A stretch of DNA of 64,000 nucleotides, taken from positions 2,311,639 to 2,375,638 of the forward strand of contig NZ_LT732526.1 in assembly GCF_900155545.1 (NCBI RefSeq). The letters are read 5' to 3'. The notes under the pieces were generated by a model, which was not told where the DNA came from, did not search any database, and saw only the letters and a list, made by a program, of their open reading frames with translations. The translations under genes and the position numbers were made by a program. The stretch comes from Clostridium sp. Marseille-P2415 (GTDB lineage Bacteria; Bacillota; Clostridia; Lachnospirales; Lachnospiraceae). This document shows positions 5,659 to 64,000 of the stretch, in pieces (position 1 is the first letter of the stretch; the number at the start of each line of letters is the position of its first letter).

Positions 5659-7095
5659 ATGACAAATGAAGCATTGGTTCAAAAAATCCTGGAACTATCG
5701 GGAGGGAAAGAAAACGTGGCAGCCGCGGCCAGCTGCATGACACGCCTTCGCTTAAAGGTAAAGGACCCGGATCAGGTGCAGGCGGAGGAACTGAAAGGGC
5801 TTTCAGGAGTTCTTGGCCTGGTTTCAAACGGAATTGATGTACAGGTGGTGGTCGGACCCGGTAAAGCCAGAAAGCTCATGGATATCTGCATCGGTATGGG
5901 GATCCCAGGCGAGCCTGACGGCAAAGGGCTCTCCACCAATGTCTCCTGGCAGGAAAACAAAGAAGCGTTAAAGGCCGGCCAGAAAGGCAGCGGGCTAAAG
6001 AGCGGCATACGGGTCATCTCCGATATCTTTATTCCAATGATTCCGGCTATCATTGCAGCCGGATTATGCAACGGTGTGGCCAATATCATCGGCCAGGGCG
6101 TGGATGCGCAGATATTAGCAGGCAGCTTCTGGACCCTTCCCGTCACCATACTGAAGCTGTTCGGCGGCGCATTTCTCGGTTATTTTGCCATTTACACCGG
6201 TATTAATGCAGCAAAAAGCTTTGGAGCGACGCCTGCCCTGGGCGGCATGATCGGCTCCATGAGCATTATGTCACAGATAACGGACATTTCAAAACTCTTT
6301 GGTCTTTACAATGAGCAGATTCCAAACAGCTCTACACTGATAAGCGGCAAGGGCGGGATCATCGGCGTAATCGTCGGCGTCTGGGTGCTTTCCAAAGTGG
6401 AACGCTGGGTGCGCAGGCACGTTCCCGATGTCCTTGACATCATGCTGACCGGCTTTTTAAGCATTCTGATAACCGGAACCCTGTTTGTACTGGTACTGAT
6501 GCCGGCTGCCGGCTTTTTATCCGACGGTCTGGTCCGGGCTTTATCCCTCCTTGTAAATTCCACGAATCCGGTTGTCAGCGTTCTGTCCGGTTACATCATG
6601 TCAGCCGTGTTCCTTCCCCTGGTCCTTTTGGGACTGCATCATGGGCTGGTTCCCATTTATGCGGTCCAGCTGGAACAGATGGGCGGAGTCTCCTTATTCC
6701 CGGTCCTGGCTATGGCAGGTGCAGGGCAGGTGGGTGCGGCCATTGCCATCTATCTGAAAGCCAAACGAAGCGGAAACAAACGCTTAAAGAGCATCATCAT
6801 CGGTGCGCTGCCATCCGGATTTTTAGGCATCGGGGAACCCCTCATTTATGGGGTCACTCTTCCCCTCGGCAAGCCTTTCATAACTGCAGGATTAGGAGCC
6901 GGCTTCGGCGGCGCCTATGTGATGCTGATGCATGTAAAGAGCATTGCCTGGAGCCCTTCCGGCCTGTTAGCCATTCCGATCATGAGCAGCCCGGTTAACA
7001 TGCTCCATTATTTTCTGGGTCTGGTGATCGCATACATTGCCGGATTTATCATCACCGGCCTGTTTATTAAGGAGGACGAAGTTGCAAAAGCCTGA
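5659..7095 (+). CDS. murP: PTS MurNAc-type EIIBC component
   Basis: 478 residues. An N-terminal EIIB domain carries the phospho-acceptor Cys26 in SCMTRLRLKV; a long EIIC domain from about residue 105 has repeated membrane segments and the glucose-superfamily motif GFLGIGEPLIYGVTLP. There is no EIIA domain, so phosphate must come from a EIIA encoded elsewhere, as for E. coli MurP. Position between murQ and mupG supports MurNAc or a MurNAc disaccharide as substrate; sequence alone would also allow another sugar of the glucose superfamily. ATG 5659 follows GGAGGTG; the ATG 15 bases upstream overlaps that ribosome site. Confidence 0.85.
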   Translation: MTNEALVQKILELSGGKENVAAAASCMTRLRLKVKDPDQVQAEELKGLSGVLGLVSNGIDVQVVVGPGKARKLMDICIGMGIPGEPDGKGLSTNVSWQENKEALKAGQKGSGLKSGIRVISDIFIPMIPAIIAAGLCNGVANIIGQGVDAQILAGSFWTLPVTILKLFGGAFLGYFAIYTGINAAKSFGATPALGGMIGSMSIMSQITDISKLFGLYNEQIPNSSTLISGKGGIIGVIVGVWVLSKVERWVRRHVPDVLDIMLTGFLSILITGTLFVLVLMPAAGFLSDGLVRALSLLVNSTNPVVSVLSGYIMSAVFLPLVLLGLHHGLVPIYAVQLEQMGGVSLFPVLAMAGAGQVGAAIAIYLKAKRSGNKRLKSIIIGALPSGFLGIGEPLIYGVTLPLGKPFITAGLGAGFGGAYVMLMHVKSIAWSPSGLLAIPIMSSPVNMLHYFLGLVIAYIAGFIITGLFIKEDEVAKA

Positions 7096-8137
7096 ACGTT
7101 TTGGCCGTTCGGCCTATGTAAGCTGTTTTGATTCCATGAGGGAGAGCCTTTCCGGGCTCTCCCGGGGCCTTCTGTTCACATCCTTTCATATCAGTGAGGA
7201 ATTCGGGCCGGATTACAGTGAAAAAGCGCGGGAAATGTGCCGGTTCCTCTTAAAACAGGGATATGAGATCATTGGAGATGTATCCCCCAAAACCCTGGAA
7301 CAATTTGGTTCCCCGGATATCCTGTCATTTGCAAAGGAAATGGGTATCTCCATCCTGCGGCTGGATTACGGCTTTCCGGCTGATGAAATCAGAGCCATTG
7401 CAAAGCATATCCCCATCGCGGTCAATGCCAGCACAAAGGATCACCGGCTGGCCTGTGAAATCGCAGGCGAGGGAGGCAGTGTTTATGCCATCCACAATTT
7501 CTATCCCCGGCCGGAGACTGGCCTTGATGAACCCTTCTTCCAGTCCACGAACCAGAAGCTTCACGACGCAGGGGTACGGGTTCTGGCCTTTGTGCCGGGA
7601 GATGAAGCTCTGCGGGGCCCGGTTTTTTCCGGACTTCCCACCCTGGAAAAGCACCGGGGTCTGCCTCCCTACGTCTGCTACGCCGATTTATGCCGGCCGG
7701 AGAACAGGCTTTACGGGATACTCACCGGAGATCCCGGTCTCTCGGCCCCGCAGGCTGCCCTGATCGGGGAATACCTCCATACCGGTACTCTGAGCATTCC
7801 TGCGGTCCTTCATCCGGGTTTTGAAGGCTTCTTCGGATGTACCTTTACCATACGTCCTGACAGCCCCTCCTGGCTTGCCCGCCTTCAGGAAAGCCAGGAA
7901 TACAGTTCACCAGGAGAGGAAACAGTCCCTTGCAACTGCATTGCAAGGACAAAGGGATCCATTACCATGGACAACCGGCTCTACGGACGTTATTCCGGAG
8001 AGATCCAGCTGTTAAACAAAGACTTTCCGGCCGATGAACGGGTCAATGTCATCGGACACGTTCCGGCCGGATATGAACTTTTATTCGGCTGTCTGGAGCG
8101 GGGAGGTAAAATAAAGCTTACCCGGCCTTCCACTTGA
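7082..8137 (+). CDS. mupG: MupG-type 6-phospho-N-acetylmuramidase (DUF871)
   Basis: 351 residues with a DUF871 TIM-barrel N-terminus (FTSFHISEEFG, IGDVSPKTLEQFG, LRLDYGF, NASTKD, HNFYPRPETGLD) and a C-terminal cyclophilin-like domain. Characterised MupG splits intracellular MurNAc-6P-GlcNAc. I place the start at TTG 7082: AAGGAGG sits 6 bases upstream, whereas the ATG at 7037 lies deep inside murP and would add a tail unlike the family. It overlaps the murP end by 14 bases. Together with murP and murQ it completes a route from imported MurNAc disaccharide to GlcNAc-6P. Confidence 0.85.
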   Translation: MQKPERFGRSAYVSCFDSMRESLSGLSRGLLFTSFHISEEFGPDYSEKAREMCRFLLKQGYEIIGDVSPKTLEQFGSPDILSFAKEMGISILRLDYGFPADEIRAIAKHIPIAVNASTKDHRLACEIAGEGGSVYAIHNFYPRPETGLDEPFFQSTNQKLHDAGVRVLAFVPGDEALRGPVFSGLPTLEKHRGLPPYVCYADLCRPENRLYGILTGDPGLSAPQAALIGEYLHTGTLSIPAVLHPGFEGFFGCTFTIRPDSPSWLARLQESQEYSSPGEETVPCNCIARTKGSITMDNRLYGRYSGEIQLLNKDFPADERVNVIGHVPAGYELLFGCLERGGKIKLTRPST

Positions 8138-8181
8138 TTTCTTTCCTTCCCTATAATACAATAGAGGGCAAGGAGGATGCT

Positions 8182-8586
8182 ATGAAAATCGTTATTATTG
8201 ACGGGCAGGGCGGAAAAATGGGACAGTCCGTCATCGCCCAGCTGAAAAAATCCCATCCCGAGCTTCGGATCACTGCCATCGGGACCAACTCCATCGCTAC
8301 TTCCGCCATGCTGAAGGCAGGAGCTGACGCAGGTGCAACCGGCGAGAATCCCGTTATCGTGGCCAGCCGTGATGCCGATATCATCATCGGCCCCATTGGG
8401 ATCGTCATTGCCGACTCCCTGTTAGGAGAGATCACCCCTGTCATGGCAGAAGCCATTGGCAAAAGCCGTGCCTATAAGATCCTCATACCGGTGAATAAAT
8501 GCAATCATTATGTGGTAGGCTGTGAAAACCTGACCCTTTCGGAATCCATTGTCCTGGTAATCAAACAGGTGGAGAATCTTTTATGA
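8182..8586 (+). CDS. DUF3842 family protein
   Basis: 134 residues; MKIVIIDGQGGKMGQSVIAQL looks like a Rossmann-type nucleotide-binding start, followed by IGTNSIATSAMLKAGADAGA and a conserved PVNKCNHYVVG near the end. This is the small clostridial DUF3842 family, with no known function. It starts 44 bases after mupG behind AAGGAGG and is probably the last gene of the MurNAc operon, ending in the terminator at 8566-8604. A link to MurNAc metabolism is only positional. Confidence 0.8.
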   Translation: MKIVIIDGQGGKMGQSVIAQLKKSHPELRITAIGTNSIATSAMLKAGADAGATGENPVIVASRDADIIIGPIGIVIADSLLGEITPVMAEAIGKSRAYKILIPVNKCNHYVVGCENLTLSESIVLVIKQVENLL

Positions 8587-8604
8587 TCTCCACCTGTTTG
8601 TTTA
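8566..8604 (+). terminator. Rho-independent terminator of the MurNAc operon
   Basis: CAGGTGGAGA (8566-8575) pairs perfectly with TCTCCACCTG (8587-8596) around a loop that includes the DUF3842 stop codon, followed by TTTGTTTA. The stem begins inside the coding sequence. Confidence 0.8.
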
Positions 8605-8607
8605 TGA

Positions 8608-8783
8608 GGAAGTTCGATTCGCCTCCGGCTCACCGAACGGCTGATTTACTAAATTCAGGCTGCGCTCCGCTTGCATTCATTAAGGAAATAATACCAAGGA
8701 AGTTCGATTCGCCCTCCGGCTCATCGAACGGCTGATTTCCTAAACTCAGGCCGCGCTTCGCTTGCCTTCATTAAGGAAATCAT
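8608..8783. repeat. Two tandem 85-bp structured repeats (family 2)
   Basis: Copy A 8608-8690 and copy B 8698-8783, period 90. Shared order: GGAAGTTCGATTCG, a CCTCCGGCTC loop, CGAACGGCTGATTT, a variable middle CTCAGGC/TTCAGGC plus CGCT-rich patch, then TTCATTAAGGAAAT. TTCGAT/ATCGAA arms form an inner hairpin and CTGATTTCC can pair with the terminal GGAAATCA. A third, more diverged copy lies at 15762-15847. The pair fills the gap between the convergent DUF3842 gene and guaB. Confidence 0.8.
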
Positions 8784-8785
8784 GC

Positions 8786-10261
<1,476 letters not shown>

Positions 10262-10309
10262 TTATTCTTATTAATATTACTAATAAGCCTTTTCGCTTGT
10301 TAGTTACAT

Positions 10310-10338
10310 AGTTTAACAAATTTTACAGAGGTTGTCAA
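10310..10338 (-). promoter_or_regulatory. Promoter of guaB
   Basis: Read on the minus strand: TTGACA (10333-10338), 17 bases, TAAACT (10310-10315), about 70 bases before the guaB start. No guanine-type riboswitch fold was seen in the leader. Confidence 0.6.
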
Positions 10339-10411
10339 CGGACATTTTACCGATTTTTTCCGTCCTCCGTGGACACCCGGATACAGGTTTGCCATACCTC
10401 TCACACGTCTT

Positions 10412-11314
10412 CTACTTATCTTTATAATCCGGCACGTGCAAATCATGAATCCCGCAGATATAATCAATAAACAGCCCCGTCGCATGGTCCACTGCGGCAT
10501 TTTTCTTTGTAATGAGACAGACCTCCCAGGTAAAGGAGTCATCCGCAAACGTTACCGCGCAGGTATCGGGAATATTTTCGGAGATAAAGAGAACGCTGAC
10601 TCCGATTCCCTTGTTGCTGCCTGCCAGTTTCTGCACCAGAATCATCTCCATGGTCGTATGGTATATCTGAGGTCTGAATCCGGCTGCAATACAGCCTTTC
10701 ATAAAGTTGTGATACAGCTTAAAGTTTTCATTAACAATTATAAATTTCTGATCCTTAAGCTCAGAAAATTCAACCGCATCCTTTTGGCAGAGCGGGTTGG
10801 ACCGGTTGACAATCAGACACATCCGGTCCCGTTTTATCGTTTTATAATCAAAAAGGTCCGGGGCAACCGGGGCAATGGTAAATCCCACGGCTGCCTTTTC
10901 ACTTAACACGGCCTCTTCACATTCTTTATCCGGATATTCTTCTATTTTCAGTTGTATCCTGGGATGGTTTTTCTGAAATTCCGAGATCAGGTCAGGAGAC
11001 AATGCACTCATTACCCCAAAGGAAAACGCGGCCCGGACTTCTCCCTGTTCATTGTTTTTCATATTGTTCATGTCCTGCATGATCATATCAAACTCTTCCA
11101 GAACATGGCGGCTTTTCTTTTCAAGGTATTTTCCGTATTCGGTTAATGTAATTCCTGCATTGGTACGGTAAAACAGAGAAATTCCCAGTTCATTCTCTAA
11201 ATTTTTAATGGCTTTGCTAAGGGCCTGCTGGGTGACGAACAGCTTTCTGGCCGCCTTGGAAAAGCTGAGCTCCGTACAAATCTCTAAAAAAAACCGCAAT
11301 TGCTTGTTGTCCAT
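10412..11314 (-). CDS. LysR family transcriptional regulator
   Basis: 300 residues. N-terminal winged helix MDNKQLRFFLEICTELSFSKAARKLFVTQQALSK (standard LysR start, shown here in part), then a periplasmic-binding-protein-like effector domain from about residue 90. ATG 11314 is used because GGAGG lies upstream at normal distance; the longer frame would leave no ribosome site. It is divergent from the flavin oxidoreductase at 11504 with a 189-bp shared control region, the classic arrangement for a LysR regulator and its target. Confidence 0.9.
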   Translation of the reverse strand: MDNKQLRFFLEICTELSFSKAARKLFVTQQALSKAIKNLENELGISLFYRTNAGITLTEYGKYLEKKSRHVLEEFDMIMQDMNNMKNNEQGEVRAAFSFGVMSALSPDLISEFQKNHPRIQLKIEEYPDKECEEAVLSEKAAVGFTIAPVAPDLFDYKTIKRDRMCLIVNRSNPLCQKDAVEFSELKDQKFIIVNENFKLYHNFMKGCIAAGFRPQIYHTTMEMILVQKLAGSNKGIGVSVLFISENIPDTCAVTFADDSFTWEVCLITKKNAAVDHATGLFIDYICGIHDLHVPDYKDK

Positions 11315-57908: not shown

Positions 57909-58664
57909 TCAGAACGCCTTCAGCCCGATCCCGGCATTCTCTAAGCTTTCCCGTATTTTCTTCACAAATTCCAATGCTCTTTTCCCATCCCCATGAACGC
58001 ATACGGAATCAGCCTCAATGGAAATATCACTTCCGTCTATGGCTTCTACCTTCCCTTCCCGCGCCATGCGGATCACCCGGCTGACCGCCAGGTCTTCGTC
58101 TTCTATGACAGCCCCTTTCTGGCTGCGGGGGACCAGGGTCCCGTCCCTTTGGTACGCCCGGTCTGCAAAAACTTCGCTGGCACAGGAAATCCCCAGTTCC
58201 TTTGCTGCCCGGAGCATCTCACTGCCGCTTAAAGCCAGGAGGACCATGCTTTCATCCACCTCTTTGATTGCCTGGCAGATGGCCTTTGCAAGTTTATAAT
58301 CCTTCGCAGCCATGTTGTATAGGGCCCCATGGGGTTTTACGTGGCAAAGCCTGACTCCTGCCCCGTCGCAAAACGCTTTCAGGGCCCCGATCTGATACAT
58401 GACACCGGCCTTTGCCTCCTCTGGAGAAAGACTCATATTCCGCCTCCCAAATCCCGCCAGATCCGGAAATCCCGGATGGGCACCGGCCCGCACTCCATGC
58501 TCCCGGCACAGGGCTACGGTTTTTTCCATGACCAGAGGATCCCCTGCATGGAAGCCGCAGGCAATATTCGCTGACGTAACAAACGGAAGGACTTCGTTAT
58601 CCATTCCGATCTTATAGACCCCGAAGCTTTCTCCCAGATCACAGTTTAAATCAATGGCTGGCAT
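57909..58664 (-). CDS. pxpA: 5-oxoprolinase subunit PxpA
   Basis: 251 residues, LamB/YcsF family: [60 protein letters not shown] and [17 protein letters not shown]. With PxpB and PxpC it forms the ATP-dependent bacterial 5-oxoprolinase that opens 5-oxo-L-proline to L-glutamate. ATG 58664 follows AGGAG; the GTG 6 bases earlier overlaps that site. Last gene of the operon. Confidence 0.95.
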
Positions 58665-58695
58665 GAACACCGCTCCTTTCCTCTCTTTTACTCCG

Positions 58696-59505
58696 TTAAT
58701 ACTTTAATTCCGCATTTTTGATATCCGTAATAAACATATGGCCCGGAGCATGGGTAATGACAAAGGAAGGCCTGCTGTTCATGACTGCGGCCTGGGGCGT
58801 AACGCCGCAGGGCCAGAATACAGGTACCTCTCCCTCCCTTATGGTCACCGGATCTCCGTAATCAGGCTTTTCGATGTGACGGATCCCAATGGCTTCCGGA
58901 TAGCCGATCTGCACCGGAGCACCATGTACCCTCGGCATGGCAGCAGTGATGGCTGCGGCCGCCGGTACCTGCCTGTGGGGAATCGGCCGCATGCTGACCA
59001 CCATATTTCCGGAAAATATTCCGGCAGATGCGCAGGGAATCTTTGTATTGTACATGGGAACATTGACCCCTTCCTCAATCTGCCTCACCGGTATCCCAGC
59101 CTCTAAAAGCTCTGTTTCAAAGGAAAAGCTGCATCCGATCAGAAAGCTTACAAGTTTTCGTCCGGTTTTCTGGTAATCATCAAAAATCTCTGATACATCC
59201 GTATATTCTCCGGTACAGATTCCGTTTTCATATATCCGGTACCTGGGAATATCCCTTAGGATATCACTGCCCTCTGCGGTCAGGGGAAATGTCCTGCTGC
59301 CCGCATCCGACACCTCCAGAAGGGGACAGGCCCTGGGATTTCTCTGGCAGAATAAAAGAAAATCCAAGGCGAGTTCCTGGGGAAGAACCACCAGATTTCC
59401 CTGTGCGTAGCCGCCGCACATACCTGTCGTAGGACCGTACAGGATCCCTTCCCTGATCAGCTGCCTTACCTCTTTCGGTTTTCGATCCATGTATTCCATG
59501 CTCAT
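58696..59505 (-). CDS. YcsI/DUF1445 family protein, D-glutamate cyclase-like N-domain
   Basis: 269 residues: [73 protein letters not shown] and the C-terminal [15 protein letters not shown]. This is PF07286; the same domain forms the N-terminal half of mammalian D-glutamate cyclase DGLUCY, which makes 5-oxo-D-proline from D-glutamate. It lies in the pxp operon as in B. subtilis. Its start overlaps the pxpC stop (ATGA). The partner C-domain is encoded separately at 61253-62326. Confidence 0.88.
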
Positions 59506-60554
59506 ACTCTTTTCCTTCTTTCCTGACAACCGTGAAAAACCTGTTTCAGCCGTTCCTGAAACTCCCTGAGTTTTTTTTCTTCCTTTCGGGCGGCTGCAAC
59601 TGCCTCTTTCGGAGTCACATACTGAAACGTCACCCAGTCCCCTGGCCTTAACTGGGCCAGAGCTGGAATATCCGTACTGATTACCGTAGCAATTTTGGCA
59701 TATCCGCCTGCAGTCTGGTGATCTGCCATTAAGACCATGGGAAGCCCGGAGGCCGATACCTGAACGGAGCCTTCTACAATTCCGTCGGAAATAATGTCTG
59801 CCCCCTTTTTCATTTCAATAGCCGGACCTTCCAGCCTGCACGCCATCCGGTCACAATCCCTGCTCAGGCGGTAAGGGGCTCTGACAAAGGTCTTAAGCCC
59901 GCTTTCCGTAAATGCCTCATCCTGAGGTCCGGCAACTGCACGAAGCAGTATAAACCTTTCATTGCCGTAATAACGGCAGGGATTCCCGGGCAGGCGGAGC
60001 CACGGCTCATTCACATCTATGGAGAGATCCGGCTCTCTTCCCTTAAGCATTTCTTTCAAATGCCTGGCCTGTTCCGGCGTTTTGCCATTTTCCAGAACAT
60101 CTCCTGCACGCAGCGGCCTCCCGCCGAATCCTCCCATCCGGCATTTTAAATTGGTGGAACGGCTTCCCATGACAACAGGAACCGATATGCCGCCGTATAC
60201 TGCCATGTAGGTCCGCAGGCCCCAGACCGCAAATCCCAGTGTCAGAATGTCTCCGGCTTCTGCCAGAATGGGGCTGTACATGGGAACCGGATGTCCGTTC
60301 AGTGCCGGACTCATATCCGCACCTGTAAGGGCGAGGATCTCGTCGGAGGTAAAACGGATTTCTCCGCCGTTTAAGGTAAACTCCACCACTGCCGCCTGCT
60401 CCGGTTCTTCTAAATTTCCAGCCAGCAGATTGGCAAGTCTCATGGAGTATTTGTCACAGGCTCCGCTTTCCTGAAACCCCTGGTTTAAATATCCGCTTCT
60501 TCCCTTGTCCTGCACGGTGGACAGGGCCCCCGGCAATAGGATCTCAAATGCCAT
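59502..60554 (-). CDS. pxpC: 5-oxoprolinase subunit PxpC
   Basis: 350 residues, biotin-dependent carboxyltransferase-like family (KipA/YbgK): LLPGALSTVQDKGRSGY, GACDKYSMRLANLLAGN, YGGISVPVVMGSRSTNLKC, FRVS-like late PYRLSRDCDRMACRLEG and GLPMVLMADHQTAGGYAKIA. Works with PxpB. ATG 60554 follows GAGGTGA, which includes the pxpB stop codon, so translation is coupled. Confidence 0.95.
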   Translation of the reverse strand: MAFEILLPGALSTVQDKGRSGYLNQGFQESGACDKYSMRLANLLAGNLEEPEQAAVVEFTLNGGEIRFTSDEILALTGADMSPALNGHPVPMYSPILAEAGDILTLGFAVWGLRTYMAVYGGISVPVVMGSRSTNLKCRMGGFGGRPLRAGDVLENGKTPEQARHLKEMLKGREPDLSIDVNEPWLRLPGNPCRYYGNERFILLRAVAGPQDEAFTESGLKTFVRAPYRLSRDCDRMACRLEGPAIEMKKGADIISDGIVEGSVQVSASGLPMVLMADHQTAGGYAKIATVISTDIPALAQLRPGDWVTFQYVTPKEAVAAARKEEKKLREFQERLKQVFHGCQERRKRV

Positions 60555-60559
60555 ATCCG

Positions 60560-61249
60560 TCACCTCATTTCCTGTTCCCGGCTGATTTTATCAAAATCCG
60601 TCCGGCTGATGGGTACAAAACGGATGGAATCTCCGGCCTCATAAAGCGGTTTTCCCTCATGCTCGGGCTGAAAAAGCCGGTATGGAGTGCGCCCGATGAG
60701 CTGCCATCCGCCGGGGGATTCCATGGGATAGATGCCGGTCTGTTCGCCGCCGATTCCCACGGACCCTGCTGGAATCCCGGTCCTGGGCGTTTGGAGCCGG
60801 GGTGTAAAAATACGCGCATCCATTCCTCCCAGATAAGGAAACCCGGGAAGAAATCCCAGCATATAAATACGGTAGTCCCTGCCGCAATGAAGCTTGATCA
60901 CTTCTTCTTCCTTCATTCCGGCATGCTCTGCCACAAAGGACAGATCCGGCCCGAAGCTTCCTCCGTAACAGACCGGAATTTGCACAAGCTTCCCGGCTGA
61001 TTTTCCCCCTTCCTCCAAAGCTTCAGTCAGGCTTAACATGGCCTGGGACACAGTGTCAAAATCGGTTTTCAAAGGGTCATAACAGACCAGAATGGAACAA
61101 AAGGCGGGTACTGTCTCCAGAATTCCTTCCATATAAAATTCTTTTATTTTTTTATTCAATTCCATGACCTTCCGGTTGGTAGTCTCGCTGATGGAATCTC
61201 CCAGCTCCACCAGAACGGCACGGTCTCCAACCGCCTTTATTTTTACCAT
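60560..61249 (-). CDS. pxpB: 5-oxoprolinase subunit PxpB
   Basis: 229 residues, allophanate hydrolase subunit 1-like (KipI/YbgJ): AVGDRAVLVELGDSIS at the N-terminus, PVCYGGSFGPDLSFVAEHAGM, YMLGFLPGFPYLGGMD, PRTGIPAGSVGIGGEQTGIYP and ESPGGWQLIGRTPYRLF. Pairs with PxpC. 3 bases after the upstream cyclase-domain gene. Confidence 0.95.
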   Translation of the reverse strand: MVKIKAVGDRAVLVELGDSISETTNRKVMELNKKIKEFYMEGILETVPAFCSILVCYDPLKTDFDTVSQAMLSLTEALEEGGKSAGKLVQIPVCYGGSFGPDLSFVAEHAGMKEEEVIKLHCGRDYRIYMLGFLPGFPYLGGMDARIFTPRLQTPRTGIPAGSVGIGGEQTGIYPMESPGGWQLIGRTPYRLFQPEHEGKPLYEAGDSIRFVPISRTDFDKISREQEMR

Positions 61250-61252
61250 GCC

Positions 61253-62326
61253 TTATCCCCTTTCCGCAAAAAATCCCTTTTTAAGCACCGGTCCGAACCA
61301 GTGGTCGGAATTGCGGGAATAGCGGACCGCATAGTCGGTACACTGGCGCATCAGGCTTACAATTCCGGTATTCATCCGGATGTTAAAGCCGTCAATACCG
61401 GGAAGTAGGGAGCCGGTCATATCGATCAGTCCGCTTCGGGATGCCACCCGCATGACCTCTTCCTCCATCTCCTCCCGGTGAAGGATCTCCATATCCCGCT
61501 TTAAATAGGCCAATGCGGCCATGAGTCCATAACATCCCCAGTCCGAGCAGGTGGCCGTGATCACGTGATCAGCCCCGCTGGCCGCCAGAATTCCGCCTCC
61601 GCAGCCGCATATGCATTCTTCCGGAGCCGTAAAGGGTACGTATTTTTTAATGTGCCCGGCTATGGCCCCCATGCCGATCTCATTTCCCAAATCACCGATG
61701 GCAATGTTGAGAATTCCTCTTAAGCGAAGCATTTCCCACAGAACATCGGTCTTTGCTTCCAGTTCGGACACATCCTTTCCTGCTGCATTGTGGTAAACGC
61801 CCCTCTCATTGGCACCGGGGGCCTCCACTGAGATGACTGCGGAGGGAACTGCTTCCTTTAACAGCCATTCCGCTTCCATCTGCGCCCGGGCCGGATTCTT
61901 CGTAAAGGCCAGAACTCCCATGCTAAGGGGCAGCTCCCGGACCGTCTGCAAATCCTCATATACGTGCAGGCCCACGACACCGGCGCATTTCCTGACGGCT
62001 TCCATACAGTCCTCCGGACAGATGATGACCGGTTTCGCACCAAAGGCCATGACAAGGGAACGGGCCAAAAGCATAGAGCTTACCATACCATCCATCTCAG
62101 GTTCTTTATGAGGCAGAAGCACAAATCCGGTCAGGATGAAAACAAGGTCATTTTCCCGGACCGTTTCGCACAGCTTCCCGGCCGCCCTCATAGTCAGAGG
62201 TTCTCCCATTTTTTTACGGCTTCCGGCATACAGAATCCGGCATACGCCATACCCCCTGGGATCAAGATTCATTAAGGCGTCCAGATTTTCTCCTACATTC
62301 CTTTTTTCCAGTTCAGCTCTCTCCAT
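61253..62326 (-). CDS. D-glutamate cyclase-like C-domain protein (DUF4392)
   Basis: 357 residues. LTGFVLLPHKEPEMDGMVS, SVEAPGANERGVYHNAAGKD, AIGDLGNEIGMGAI and CSDWGCYGLMAALA match the GLUCM domain (PF14336, formerly DUF4392) that forms the C-terminal half of mammalian DGLUCY. The N-terminal half (YcsI) is a separate gene three places downstream. GDLGNEIGMG looks like the metal or phosphate-binding centre. ATG 62326 follows AGGAG. It starts 8 bases after the dat stop. Confidence 0.85.
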   Translation of the reverse strand: MERAELEKRNVGENLDALMNLDPRGYGVCRILYAGSRKKMGEPLTMRAAGKLCETVRENDLVFILTGFVLLPHKEPEMDGMVSSMLLARSLVMAFGAKPVIICPEDCMEAVRKCAGVVGLHVYEDLQTVRELPLSMGVLAFTKNPARAQMEAEWLLKEAVPSAVISVEAPGANERGVYHNAAGKDVSELEAKTDVLWEMLRLRGILNIAIGDLGNEIGMGAIAGHIKKYVPFTAPEECICGCGGGILAASGADHVITATCSDWGCYGLMAALAYLKRDMEILHREEMEEEVMRVASRSGLIDMTGSLLPGIDGFNIRMNTGIVSLMRQCTDYAVRYSRNSDHWFGPVLKKGFFAERG

Positions 62327-62334
62327 ACTCACTC

Positions 62335-63192
62335 CTAATCAAATATGCTCTTCTTTCCCGTATACGCCAGATATTCCTCAATTACCGCATTCTGGATCCG
62401 CTTTAATGTCGAGGTGTCTCTGCCTCCCACCGGTTTTCCATCCACCTGCCCGGCGTAAAGGAAGAAGTTGGAAGAAGAGGTCACCAGGATTTCATCCGCG
62501 TCCATTAACTCGGAAAGGGTAAACGGCCGCTCCAGAACCGGAACGCCGAGCCTGTAACAGGCGGCTATCATATGGGTCTTTGAGATGCCGCGCAGGATCA
62601 GATTGTCATTGGGATGGGAAAGAAATATACCGTTCTTTAATATAGAAATATTGCTGTGAGCGCACTCCGTCACCACATCTCCCCGGTGAAGTACGGTCTC
62701 ATCCGCCCCAAGCCTTGCCGCTTCCTGGGAAGCCATGACCGACGGAAGCAGATTTAAGGTCTTGATATTGCAGTGCAGGAACCGGGTATCCTCTCTGGTT
62801 ATTAACTTGACCGGCACCTCCGGGTCCCGCAGTTTATTGGGCCGTATCATGACCCATAGCTTTCCCATCATATCCTCACAGTAAATGTGGTTTCTGGCCG
62901 CTGCCCCTCTTGTCACCTGCCAGTAGACAAAATGGGTTTCTCCCTCTACCCTGGAGAGAAGCTCTGTCAAAAGCTCTCCCAGTTTTTCTTTTTCCATGGG
63001 AATCTTAATGTCCAGAGCCCTTGCACTGGAATAAAAACGGTCCAGATGATCCTTCAGTAAGTAAACCCTGTGATTGCCTCCTACGGTTGCATCATAGACA
63101 CCGTCTCCAAAAAAATGTACCCGGTCGTTAAAAGGAACCGTCAGTTCCTCAGGCGTTCCGATCTTTCCGTCATAATAAGCAAGTTCTTTCAT
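62335..63192 (-). CDS. dat: D-amino-acid transaminase-like class IV aminotransferase
   Basis: 285 residues, fold type IV pyridoxal-phosphate enzyme. N-terminal YYDGKIGTPEELTVPFNDR and FGDGVYDATVGG are characteristic of D-alanine aminotransferase; KTLNLLPSVMASQEA contains the cofactor Lys (NxKTLN), followed by GADETVLHRGDVVTECAHSN and RGISKTHMI. Reaction expected: D-amino acid plus 2-oxoglutarate to 2-oxo acid plus D-glutamate. Branched-chain transaminase or ADC lyase are less likely by motif. 12 bases after livF, GGAGG ribosome site. Confidence 0.85.
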   Translation of the reverse strand: MKELAYYDGKIGTPEELTVPFNDRVHFFGDGVYDATVGGNHRVYLLKDHLDRFYSSARALDIKIPMEKEKLGELLTELLSRVEGETHFVYWQVTRGAAARNHIYCEDMMGKLWVMIRPNKLRDPEVPVKLITREDTRFLHCNIKTLNLLPSVMASQEAARLGADETVLHRGDVVTECAHSNISILKNGIFLSHPNDNLILRGISKTHMIAACYRLGVPVLERPFTLSELMDADEILVTSSSNFFLYAGQVDGKPVGGRDTSTLKRIQNAVIEEYLAYTGKKSIFD

Positions 63193-63204
63193 ACGTTTAG
63201 CCTC

Positions 63205-63903
63205 CTATTGTCCCAGATATGCCTTTTTTACCCTGGCATCCTTTAACAGCTCCCCTGCATCTCCCTGAATGGTGATCTTCCCCGTTTCCATGACATAGGC
63301 CCGGTTGGAAATGGATAAGGCCATTCTGGCGTTCTGTTCCACCAGAAGAATGGTGATGCCCTTTTTATTGACCTCCCTGATAATGGAAAAGATCTCCTTA
63401 ACCAGCAGAGGAGAAAGGCCCATGGATGGTTCATCCATAAGGATCATTCTGGGCTTTGCCATCAGGGCCCGGCCTACGGCAAGCATTTGCTGTTCTCCCC
63501 CGGATAAGGTCCCGGCAAGCTGCCTGCGCCTCTCCTTTAACCGGGTAAACCGTTCAAACACATCGTCCATGCTGGCTTCCATGTCTTTTCCGTCGGTAAA
63601 GGCTCCCATTTCCAGATTTTCCTCTACGGTCATCTGGGGGAAAATGTGCCTGCCCTCCGGCACATGAGCCAGCTTAAGGGTGATGATCCTGCTGGGCTCT
63701 GTCTTTCTCAAATCCGTCCCGTCGAAACGAATCTCTCCGTCATCCGCTTTTTTAAGCCCGGAAATGGTCCGGAGTATGGTGGTTTTTCCCGCTCCATTGG
63801 CTCCGATGAGGGAGACGATCTCCCCATGGTGTACCTCCATGGAAACATTGTGTATGGCTTCTATGGCGCCATAGGACACTGCCAGATTTTTGACCTCAAG
63901 CAT
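63205..63903 (-). CDS. livF: Branched-chain-type amino acid ABC transporter ATPase LivF
   Basis: 232 residues. Walker A LIGANGAGKTTILRT, LAHVPEGRHIFPQMTVEENL (LivF-specific), signature LSGGEQQMLAVGRALMAKP, Walker B MILMDEPSMGLSP and the switch His in LLVEQNARMAL. Energises a HAAT-family importer. ATG 63903 is used since it gives the standard start MLEVKNLAVSYG behind GGAGGTGGAGGAGG; it overlaps livG by 8 bases. Whether the substrate is a branched-chain, D- or other amino acid is unknown. Confidence 0.93.
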   Translation of the reverse strand: MLEVKNLAVSYGAIEAIHNVSMEVHHGEIVSLIGANGAGKTTILRTISGLKKADDGEIRFDGTDLRKTEPSRIITLKLAHVPEGRHIFPQMTVEENLEMGAFTDGKDMEASMDDVFERFTRLKERRRQLAGTLSGGEQQMLAVGRALMAKPRMILMDEPSMGLSPLLVKEIFSIIREVNKKGITILLVEQNARMALSISNRAYVMETGKITIQGDAGELLKDARVKKAYLGQ

Positions 63904-64000
63904 CCTCCTCCACCTCCTCTTTTCCCAAATACGCCTCGATAACCTTCTGGTCATTGGCGATCTCCTCCGGCGTCCCGGAGCAGATCGTGGTACCGAAATC
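63896..64000 (-). CDS. livG: Branched-chain-type ABC transporter ATPase LivG, C-terminal end only
   Basis: 34 C-terminal residues before a TGA at 63896-63898: DFGTTICSGTPEEIANDQKV then IEAYLGKEE, the usual LivG ending (P-E-E-I-x-x-D-x-x-V-I-x-A-Y-L-G). The rest lies outside the window. It shows that a full Liv cassette probably precedes the transaminase/cyclase/oxoprolinase genes. Confidence 0.85.
   Translation of the reverse strand, partial: DFGTTICSGTPEEIANDQKVIEAYLGKEEVEEDA

Follow-up and report, generated by a model that had tools for sequence, protein, structure and literature searches.

How could a D-amino-acid transaminase, a predicted D-glutamate cyclase and a 5-oxoprolinase, the last so far described for the salvage or nutritional use of the L form, serve one pathway? 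The question is raised by an operon of Clostridium sp. Marseille-P2415, located at the end of a window of 64,000 nucleotides (the whole stretch of DNA analysed; contig NZ_LT732526.1, positions 2,311,639 to 2,375,638). Pfam and NCBIfam profile scans, combined with a reading of the junctions, gave the order livF-dat-GLUCM-pxpB-pxpC-ycsI-pxpA, on the minus strand throughout and with overlaps or short gaps. Our overall reading, to which we give a probability of about 0.4, is that of a D-amino-acid catabolic operon leading from a D-amino acid to L-glutamate via the lactam. The reading is built on what was observed: which genes are present and how far they are conserved, the catalytic residues found in Dat and GLUCM, and feeder genes that are swapped around a YcsI-PxpABC core. 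The genes, in window coordinates, are as follows.

57909-58670, minus strand: pxpA, 5-oxoprolinase subunit A (LamB/YcsF); PF03746 at 362.7 bits and NF003814 at 385.4 bits, over the cut-off.
58696-59505, minus strand: ycsI (PF07286 'D-Glu_cyclase', DUF1445), candidate 5-oxoproline racemase; PF07286 at 231.8 bits.
59502-60554, minus strand: pxpC, 5-oxoprolinase subunit C; PF02626 at 285.2 bits, TIGR00724 over the cut-off.
60560-61249, minus strand: pxpB, 5-oxoprolinase subunit B; PF02682 at 262.1 bits, TIGR00370 over the cut-off.
61253-62332, minus strand: GLUCM, a stand-alone DUF4392 protein and predicted metal-dependent D-glutamate cyclase; PF14336 at 283.6 bits.
62335-63192, minus strand: dat, a Dat-like fold-IV D-amino-acid transaminase; PF01063.
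63205-63954, with a likely later start near 63903, minus strand: livF, ATPase of a Liv-type ATP-binding cassette (ABC) importer; PF00005, best NCBIfam model LivF, below its cut-off.
63896-64000, minus strand: 3′ end of livG, which continues outside the window (L002:7535-8335; L and G numbers are our labels for loci and genomes).

The gene order, strand and families proposed in an earlier sequence-only reading of this DNA are borne out by the Pfam matches of the window proteins. The junctions likewise show its ATGA overlap at pxpC/ycsI, where the ATG start of ycsI overlaps the pxpC stop, and its pxpB stop inside the pxpC ribosome-binding region. Its limit of about 31 bases on the gaps holds as well, the widest gap being 25 bases, or 31 if pxpA begins at the first ATG. 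The livG gene that it placed in the window is present there with only its last ~105 bases, the rest lying beyond the window edge. PxpA, PxpB and PxpC are encoded together (PF03746, PF02682, PF02626); the NCBIfam models of PxpA and PxpB are over the cut-off, and PxpC reaches 236 bits on the equivalog NF045499 (cut-off 500), clearing the threshold of the broader domain model TIGR00724 alone. The window GLUCM is the single PF14336 match in the whole genome. Rfam gave 0 matches to known RNA families in the stretch that covers the operon region (L002).

Conservation of the neighbourhood was followed in a family sample of 299 genomes, in a phylum sample of 249 genomes and in named loci comprising the best 80 GLUCM matches, 50 from the window subfamily (at least 47% identity) and 30 more distant (31-40%). 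These 50 loci are best matches rather than a random draw, near-identical genomes were not thinned, and the figures count loci rather than independent events; two named loci (L080, L092) repeat family-sample contigs (L029, L032). PF14336 matches below the cut-off were left out (L026-L028 in the family sample, one genome, G537, in the phylum sample). Over the cut-off, PF14336 was found in 24/299 family and 27/249 phylum genomes. The 24 family genomes divide into 13 with GLUCM in a ycsI-pxp cluster, 2 cut by contig ends (L030, L033) and 9 with GLUCM elsewhere. Among the 50 best named loci, dat lies directly upstream of GLUCM in 38/45, and pxpB (33), pxpC (33), ycsI (33) and pxpA (32) stand beside it in most of 37; the full set dat-GLUCM-pxpBC-ycsI-pxpA was found in 27 of the 35 loci with enough flank. 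The hosts include Lachnospiraceae, Clostridium tyrobutyricum, Oscillospiraceae, Christensenellaceae, Schwartzia (without an adjacent dat) and Spirochaetota. None of the five partners stands beside GLUCM in the 30 more distant loci. The recurrence of the arrangement in many genomes is far beyond chance, and a gene order unique to one strain, which the sequence-only reading had named as fatal to its proposal, is excluded.

Additional genes accompany some of these loci. An alanine racemase is found beside GLUCM in 15/35 loci (identified with Pfam in L085 and by similarity elsewhere), Lrp-type regulators in 6 of the 50 best named loci (Pfam-confirmed on L088), Na:alanine symporters in five loci of either sample (L036, L046, L068, L085 and L086; Pfam-confirmed on L036) and a meso-diaminopimelate dehydrogenase in L032, a locus without dat. 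These neighbours point to alanine and cell-wall D-amino acids as substrates. GLUCM and alanine racemase also occur with no adjacent pxp gene and no YcsI anywhere in the genome (L115, L118). A formate-tetrahydrofolate ligase, a FolD-like protein, a serine dehydratase or an AmtB-PII fusion was seen beside the cluster in L046, L049, L068, L113 and L114; amino-acid fermentation clusters have similar neighbours.

The distribution of YcsI bears most directly on its role. Every YcsI genome has a 5-oxoprolinase gene (PxpB in 28/28 family genomes, PxpA in 42/42 phylum genomes), against a background of 60 family genomes with PxpB and 78 phylum genomes with PxpA over the cut-off; partial matches are included for YcsI in 3 of the 42 (G335, G349, G473) and for PxpA in two genomes (G465, G513). 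PF14336 is absent from 8/28 family and 24/42 phylum YcsI genomes, the three partial YcsI matches all being among these 24, and from the Bacillus subtilis control. YcsI and GLUCM nevertheless co-occur far more often than expected, in 20 genomes vs 2.2 in the family sample (20/24 GLUCM genomes) and in 18 vs 4.6 in the phylum sample (18/27). GLUCM without YcsI was found in 4/24 family genomes, two of them cut by contig ends, and in 9/27 phylum genomes. Five phylum genomes carry an isolated ycsI-GLUCM pair in the domain order of the mammalian cyclase DGLUCY, and the pxp loci examined there are without ycsI. This distribution fits a YcsI that takes over what GLUCM makes and supplies what PxpABC uses, and leaves room for a physical YcsI-GLUCM partnership.

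Two kinds of ycsI-pxp cluster could be distinguished in the family sample, based on 26 of its 29 ycsI genes. L063 (contig end, GLUCM fragment), L064 (ycsI apart from pxp), L069 and L033 (contig end, no full ycsI) were left out, and the cluster L047/L068, whose GLUCM lies beyond the 9 kb limit of the cluster scan, was counted by hand as having GLUCM. A dat gene accompanies 12/13 clusters with GLUCM and 0/13 without (Fisher p 2.7e-6, with shared ancestry as a caveat); in L046 it lies nearby on the other strand. An NRAMP/PxpT-type gene shows the reverse pattern, with 0/13 vs 10/13 (Fisher p 1.1e-4, with the same caveat), its identity being Pfam-confirmed on two examples and assigned in the rest by a profile built from these loci. 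Three loci (L059, L065, L070) hold what we take to be biotin-carboxylase-like and small carrier-protein-like genes between or beside pxpBC, ycsI and pxpA. The NRAMP-family PxpT is required for growth of Corynebacterium glutamicum on 5-oxo-L-proline (PMC13274462), though YcsG, the family member of B. subtilis, is an importer of Mn (PMC10448178). Since PxpT is needed for 5-oxo-L-proline use, clusters without an NRAMP gene may make 5-oxoproline internally. With dat tracking GLUCM and NRAMP marking most of the clusters that lack it, YcsI-PxpABC seems to be a core fed either by import or by Dat and GLUCM. A different arrangement was seen in genome G072, which is without GLUCM: a second ycsI lies close to dat on the other strand, with no pxp nearby (L069:6402-9628).

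Trees were built of YcsI (80 sequences) and, with FastTree, of PxpABC (64 rows; several deeper forks weak). A single 58-row clade of the YcsI tree (support 89/99, under the star threshold of the tool) takes in the clusters of both GLUCM subfamilies. As the second subfamily is only 25-28% identical to the window GLUCM and both fall in this one clade, GLUCM was apparently exchanged at least once while the rest of the cluster stayed. The divergent GLUCM appears in two places of the YcsI tree, of which well-supported branches force only one, and in one clade of the PxpABC tree. Four GLUCM-less clusters with NRAMP (L059, L061, L062, L065) sit inside the 58-row clade and fall among GLUCM clusters in the PxpABC tree; their placement would agree with dat and GLUCM having been lost together, although L182, of the same subgroup, keeps dat. 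The Clostridium clusters L085, L086 and L088 group in the PxpABC tree with the NRAMP cluster L175 of another family (support 1.0), a grouping that argues against a PxpABC specialised for the D form.

The catalytic residues of the two predicted feeder enzymes could be compared with known structures. The best Protein Data Bank (PDB) matches of the window Dat are Bacillus DAAT structures (PDB 3daa). Y33, R100, H102, K144 and E176 match DAAT residues, the last four being kept in 49/49 sequences and the tyrosine in 48/49; K144 corresponds to the DAAT lysine that binds pyridoxal phosphate (PLP). Arg98 and His100 of DAAT form its carboxylate trap (PMC8105722). On the DAAT equivalog TIGR01121 the protein scores 211.2 bits, below the cut-off of 277.45. 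In the window GLUCM, the six metal ligands of TON_0340 are E79, D81, E170, D214, E218 and D314, and they are kept in 68/68 sequences. A CxCxC insert at residues 240-244, present in 51-52 of the 68 aligned sequences and replaced by a gap in the second GLUCM subfamily and in TON_0340, is a possible extra metal site. GLUCM was also considered as a two-cysteine racemase and rejected, no cysteine of the window protein being conserved in more than 52/68 sequences. Elsewhere, on a Pseudohalocynthiibacter plasmid, a distant GLUCM is flanked by genes for UbiD and Amdase (L139:8569-11649), the Amdase gene being also a weak Asp/Glu racemase match, and another stands beside a PLP-enzyme gene (L125); the family may not be uniform in role.

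For YcsI, the PDB relatives are 2pif and 3db9, and C133 (80/80), C68 and C241 (79/80 each), and H202, R149, R181 and E234 (80/80) are conserved. Apart from PF07286, the one model that the protein matches is NF003969 ('putative hydro-lyase'), and it matches no known racemase family. It was compared with the cofactor-independent two-cysteine racemases at the level of residue conservation, which gives three near-invariant cysteines as candidates for such a pair.

These observations are combined in the following scheme, in which the activities and the substrate are all predicted and the YcsI step is the boldest. D-amino acids or short products of the cell wall may enter through the Liv-type importer. 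Dat would use a D-amino acid, with D-alanine as the most likely one, to aminate 2-oxoglutarate, and GLUCM, with its Mn-type metal site, would convert the resulting D-glutamate to 5-oxo-D-proline, the direction favoured by the equilibrium. A PxpABC specific for the L form would require an inversion, for which YcsI is the candidate among the conserved genes: it would convert 5-oxo-D-proline to 5-oxo-L-proline, probably using two conserved cysteines. PxpABC with ATP would then open the ring to L-glutamate, rendering the D-to-L conversion irreversible. The lactam should give up its alpha proton more readily than free glutamate does. The equilibrium constant (Keq) of [Glu]/[5-oxoproline], given as ~0.035 for the L form (PMC13274462), holds for the D form because of mirror symmetry; therefore, cyclisation needs no energy and ring opening does. 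The mouse two-domain protein, which makes 5-oxo-D-proline, had no activity as a glutamate racemase (PMC5339696). On the sequence evidence we tentatively suggest that YcsI/DUF1445 may be a 5-oxoproline racemase, forming a separate family of racemases, and the operon an ATP-driven converter of D- to L-glutamate via the lactam. Proline racemase was considered as the missing step and rejected, the genome holding only a fragment with an internal stop.

The gene set thus far fits the route from a D-amino acid through D-glutamate and 5-oxoproline to glutamate that the sequence-only reading had drawn, and the stereochemical gap it flagged is real, our preferred answer being inversion by YcsI itself. 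Its view of YcsI and GLUCM as one split cyclase was not supported as stated. In that explanation, which we consider unlikely, the two proteins would jointly be a D-glutamate cyclase as the halves of DGLUCY, D-to-L conversion being left to another factor or to PxpABC. Both domains are indeed fused in DGLUCY, the five isolated pairs keep its order, YcsI is present in most GLUCM genomes (20/24 and 18/27), and a published table gives human GLUCM 0 full and 6 split homologues among gut bacteria (PMC11580864). However, YcsI often occurs without PF14336 (8/28 and 24/42, three of the 24 partial), always with a 5-oxoprolinase gene; GLUCM occurs without YcsI (4/24 and 9/27); and DUF1445 is said to be conserved in vertebrates only, DUF4392 also in invertebrates (PMC5339696). 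Known reactions would suffice, and no 5-oxoproline racemase would be needed, if the operon instead used racemic 5-oxoproline, with PxpABC opening the L form and GLUCM the D form to D-glutamate, the amino group passing via Dat to pyruvate and alanine racemase yielding L-alanine. The alanine racemase and alanine symporter genes near some loci agree with such a reverse direction, but it gives YcsI no explanation, uncoupled ring opening is uphill (Keq ~0.035, PMC13274462), and the NRAMP/PxpT-type gene is absent from GLUCM clusters (0/13 vs 10/13 without GLUCM), all of which make it improbable.

Acceptance of 5-oxo-D-proline by the PxpABC of the operon appears most improbable: it would return D-glutamate, in an ATP-wasting cycle with GLUCM, and no separate PxpABC lineage for GLUCM clusters is seen in the 64-row tree, several of whose deeper forks are weak. 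What speaks for it is that no measurement of the stereochemistry of these PxpABC proteins was found in the literature read. Finally, GLUCM might here be something other than a cyclase, e.g., a phosphatase as proposed for TON_0340, which has a low Mn-dependent phosphatase activity (PMC5132392), and the operon might serve another small molecule. The distant GLUCM genes beside UbiD/Amdase or PLP-enzyme genes would suit this; the Dat and 5-oxoprolinase neighbours point rather to glutamate and its lactam, and D-glutamate cyclase activity has been measured for the mouse homologue (PMC5339696), and so we regard this explanation as quite improbable.

Several observations weigh against our own reading, inversion by YcsI on the way from a D-amino acid to L-glutamate. 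GLUCM adjoins neither ycsI, pxp nor dat in 9/24 family GLUCM genomes, an adjacent dat is missing from 7/45 GLUCM loci, and 7/13 genomes with a GLUCM-less cluster hold a divergent GLUCM elsewhere (L052-L058). The five genomes that pair ycsI with GLUCM away from pxpABC also fit a joint cyclase, and the ycsI-dat locus of G072 is explained by none of the versions offered here. Conserved cysteines by themselves do not make YcsI a racemase. Glutamate-racemase-family genes are found elsewhere in the genome, so a simpler D-to-L route may exist. Mammalian DGLUCY has both domains and yields 5-oxo-D-proline, and humans excrete this product although DGLUCY has a YcsI domain, which a racemising domain should prevent (PMC5339696).

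Upstream, the Liv binding-protein gene that the sequence-only reading had suggested looking for was found just outside the window (L002:12853-14097, PF13458), together with livH and livM (PF02653), the three spanning L002:10810-14097. A full Liv-type ABC importer set is therefore encoded, with binding protein, two permeases and two ATPases; the genes beyond it are presumably CRISPR-associated. The segment livG-livF-dat occurs twice in the assembly, as 2471 identical bases at L002:5970-8440 and 8442-10912 (G000:C9) with one N exactly between the copies. A second perfect tandem repeat of 2707 bases lies on contig C8 (L187:4205-6911 and 6913-9619, G000:C8), again with one N at the junction. Because both carry one N exactly at the junction, the two repeats are probably contig-overlap artefacts of the assembly, and a genuine livG-livF-dat duplication was rejected. 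In other genomes a cytidylate-kinase-like gene (PF13189) lies between livF and dat (e.g., L029:6912-7556 and L034:9925-10593); it was found in 10 of the 50 best named loci (8/30 when the upstream flank is required to reach 8 kb) as well as in some loci of the family sample, and there is none at this place in the window.

D-glutamate cyclase is known as a mammalian enzyme, and the literature read assigns no further use to its product 5-oxo-D-proline. The operon links this activity to 5-oxoprolinase in anaerobic bacteria and suggests that these, gut bacteria included, have a route dedicated to cell-wall D-alanine and D-glutamate. No 5-oxoproline (pyroglutamate) racemase or 5-oxo-D-prolinase was found in the literature searched, from which most subscription papers were absent, and no study of a bacterial D-glutamate cyclase operon was found there, as judged by titles and abstract openings. 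As the two DGLUCY domains are genetically separate here, each can be assayed alone and the function of DUF1445 is directly testable. If the racemase proposal is true, it would give a function to a protein that accompanies PxpABC in many bacteria, and likewise to the half of mammalian DGLUCY that lies N-terminal.

The individual parts of the operon resemble several known systems. Bacillus DAAT (PDB 3daa) shares its PLP-binding lysine and its Arg/His trap for the carboxylate with the window Dat, which differs in lying under the TIGR01121 equivalog cut-off. The 5-oxoprolinase operons of B. subtilis, whose layout we take to be ycsFGI-kipIAR, and of C. glutamicum (pxpTABC) have pxpABC in common with the operon described here, and B. 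subtilis also ycsI; they differ by their NRAMP-family transporter YcsG/PxpT (PMC10448178, PMC13274462), and PF14336 is without a match in the B. subtilis control. TON_0340 of Thermococcus onnurineus (DUF4392; PDB 4fc5, 5gl4) has all six metal ligands in common with the window GLUCM; it is a stand-alone protein of an archaeon, has been reported to be probably a Mn-dependent phosphatase (PMC5132392) and has a gap at the position of the CxCxC insert. The split of human GLUCM in gut bacteria had already been noticed, as a table row (PMC11580864). The closest likeness in domain content is to DGLUCY/9030617O03Rik of mouse and human (EC 4.2.1.48), which combines DUF1445 (YcsI) with DUF4392 (GLUCM); D-glutamate is presumed to be the substrate here as well, and both PF07286 (231.8 bits) and PF14336 (283.6 bits) are over the cut-off in the window. 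Bacterial YcsI also occurs without GLUCM, and what is one polypeptide in DGLUCY is here two genes with pxpB and pxpC between them, embedded with a transaminase and a 5-oxoprolinase.

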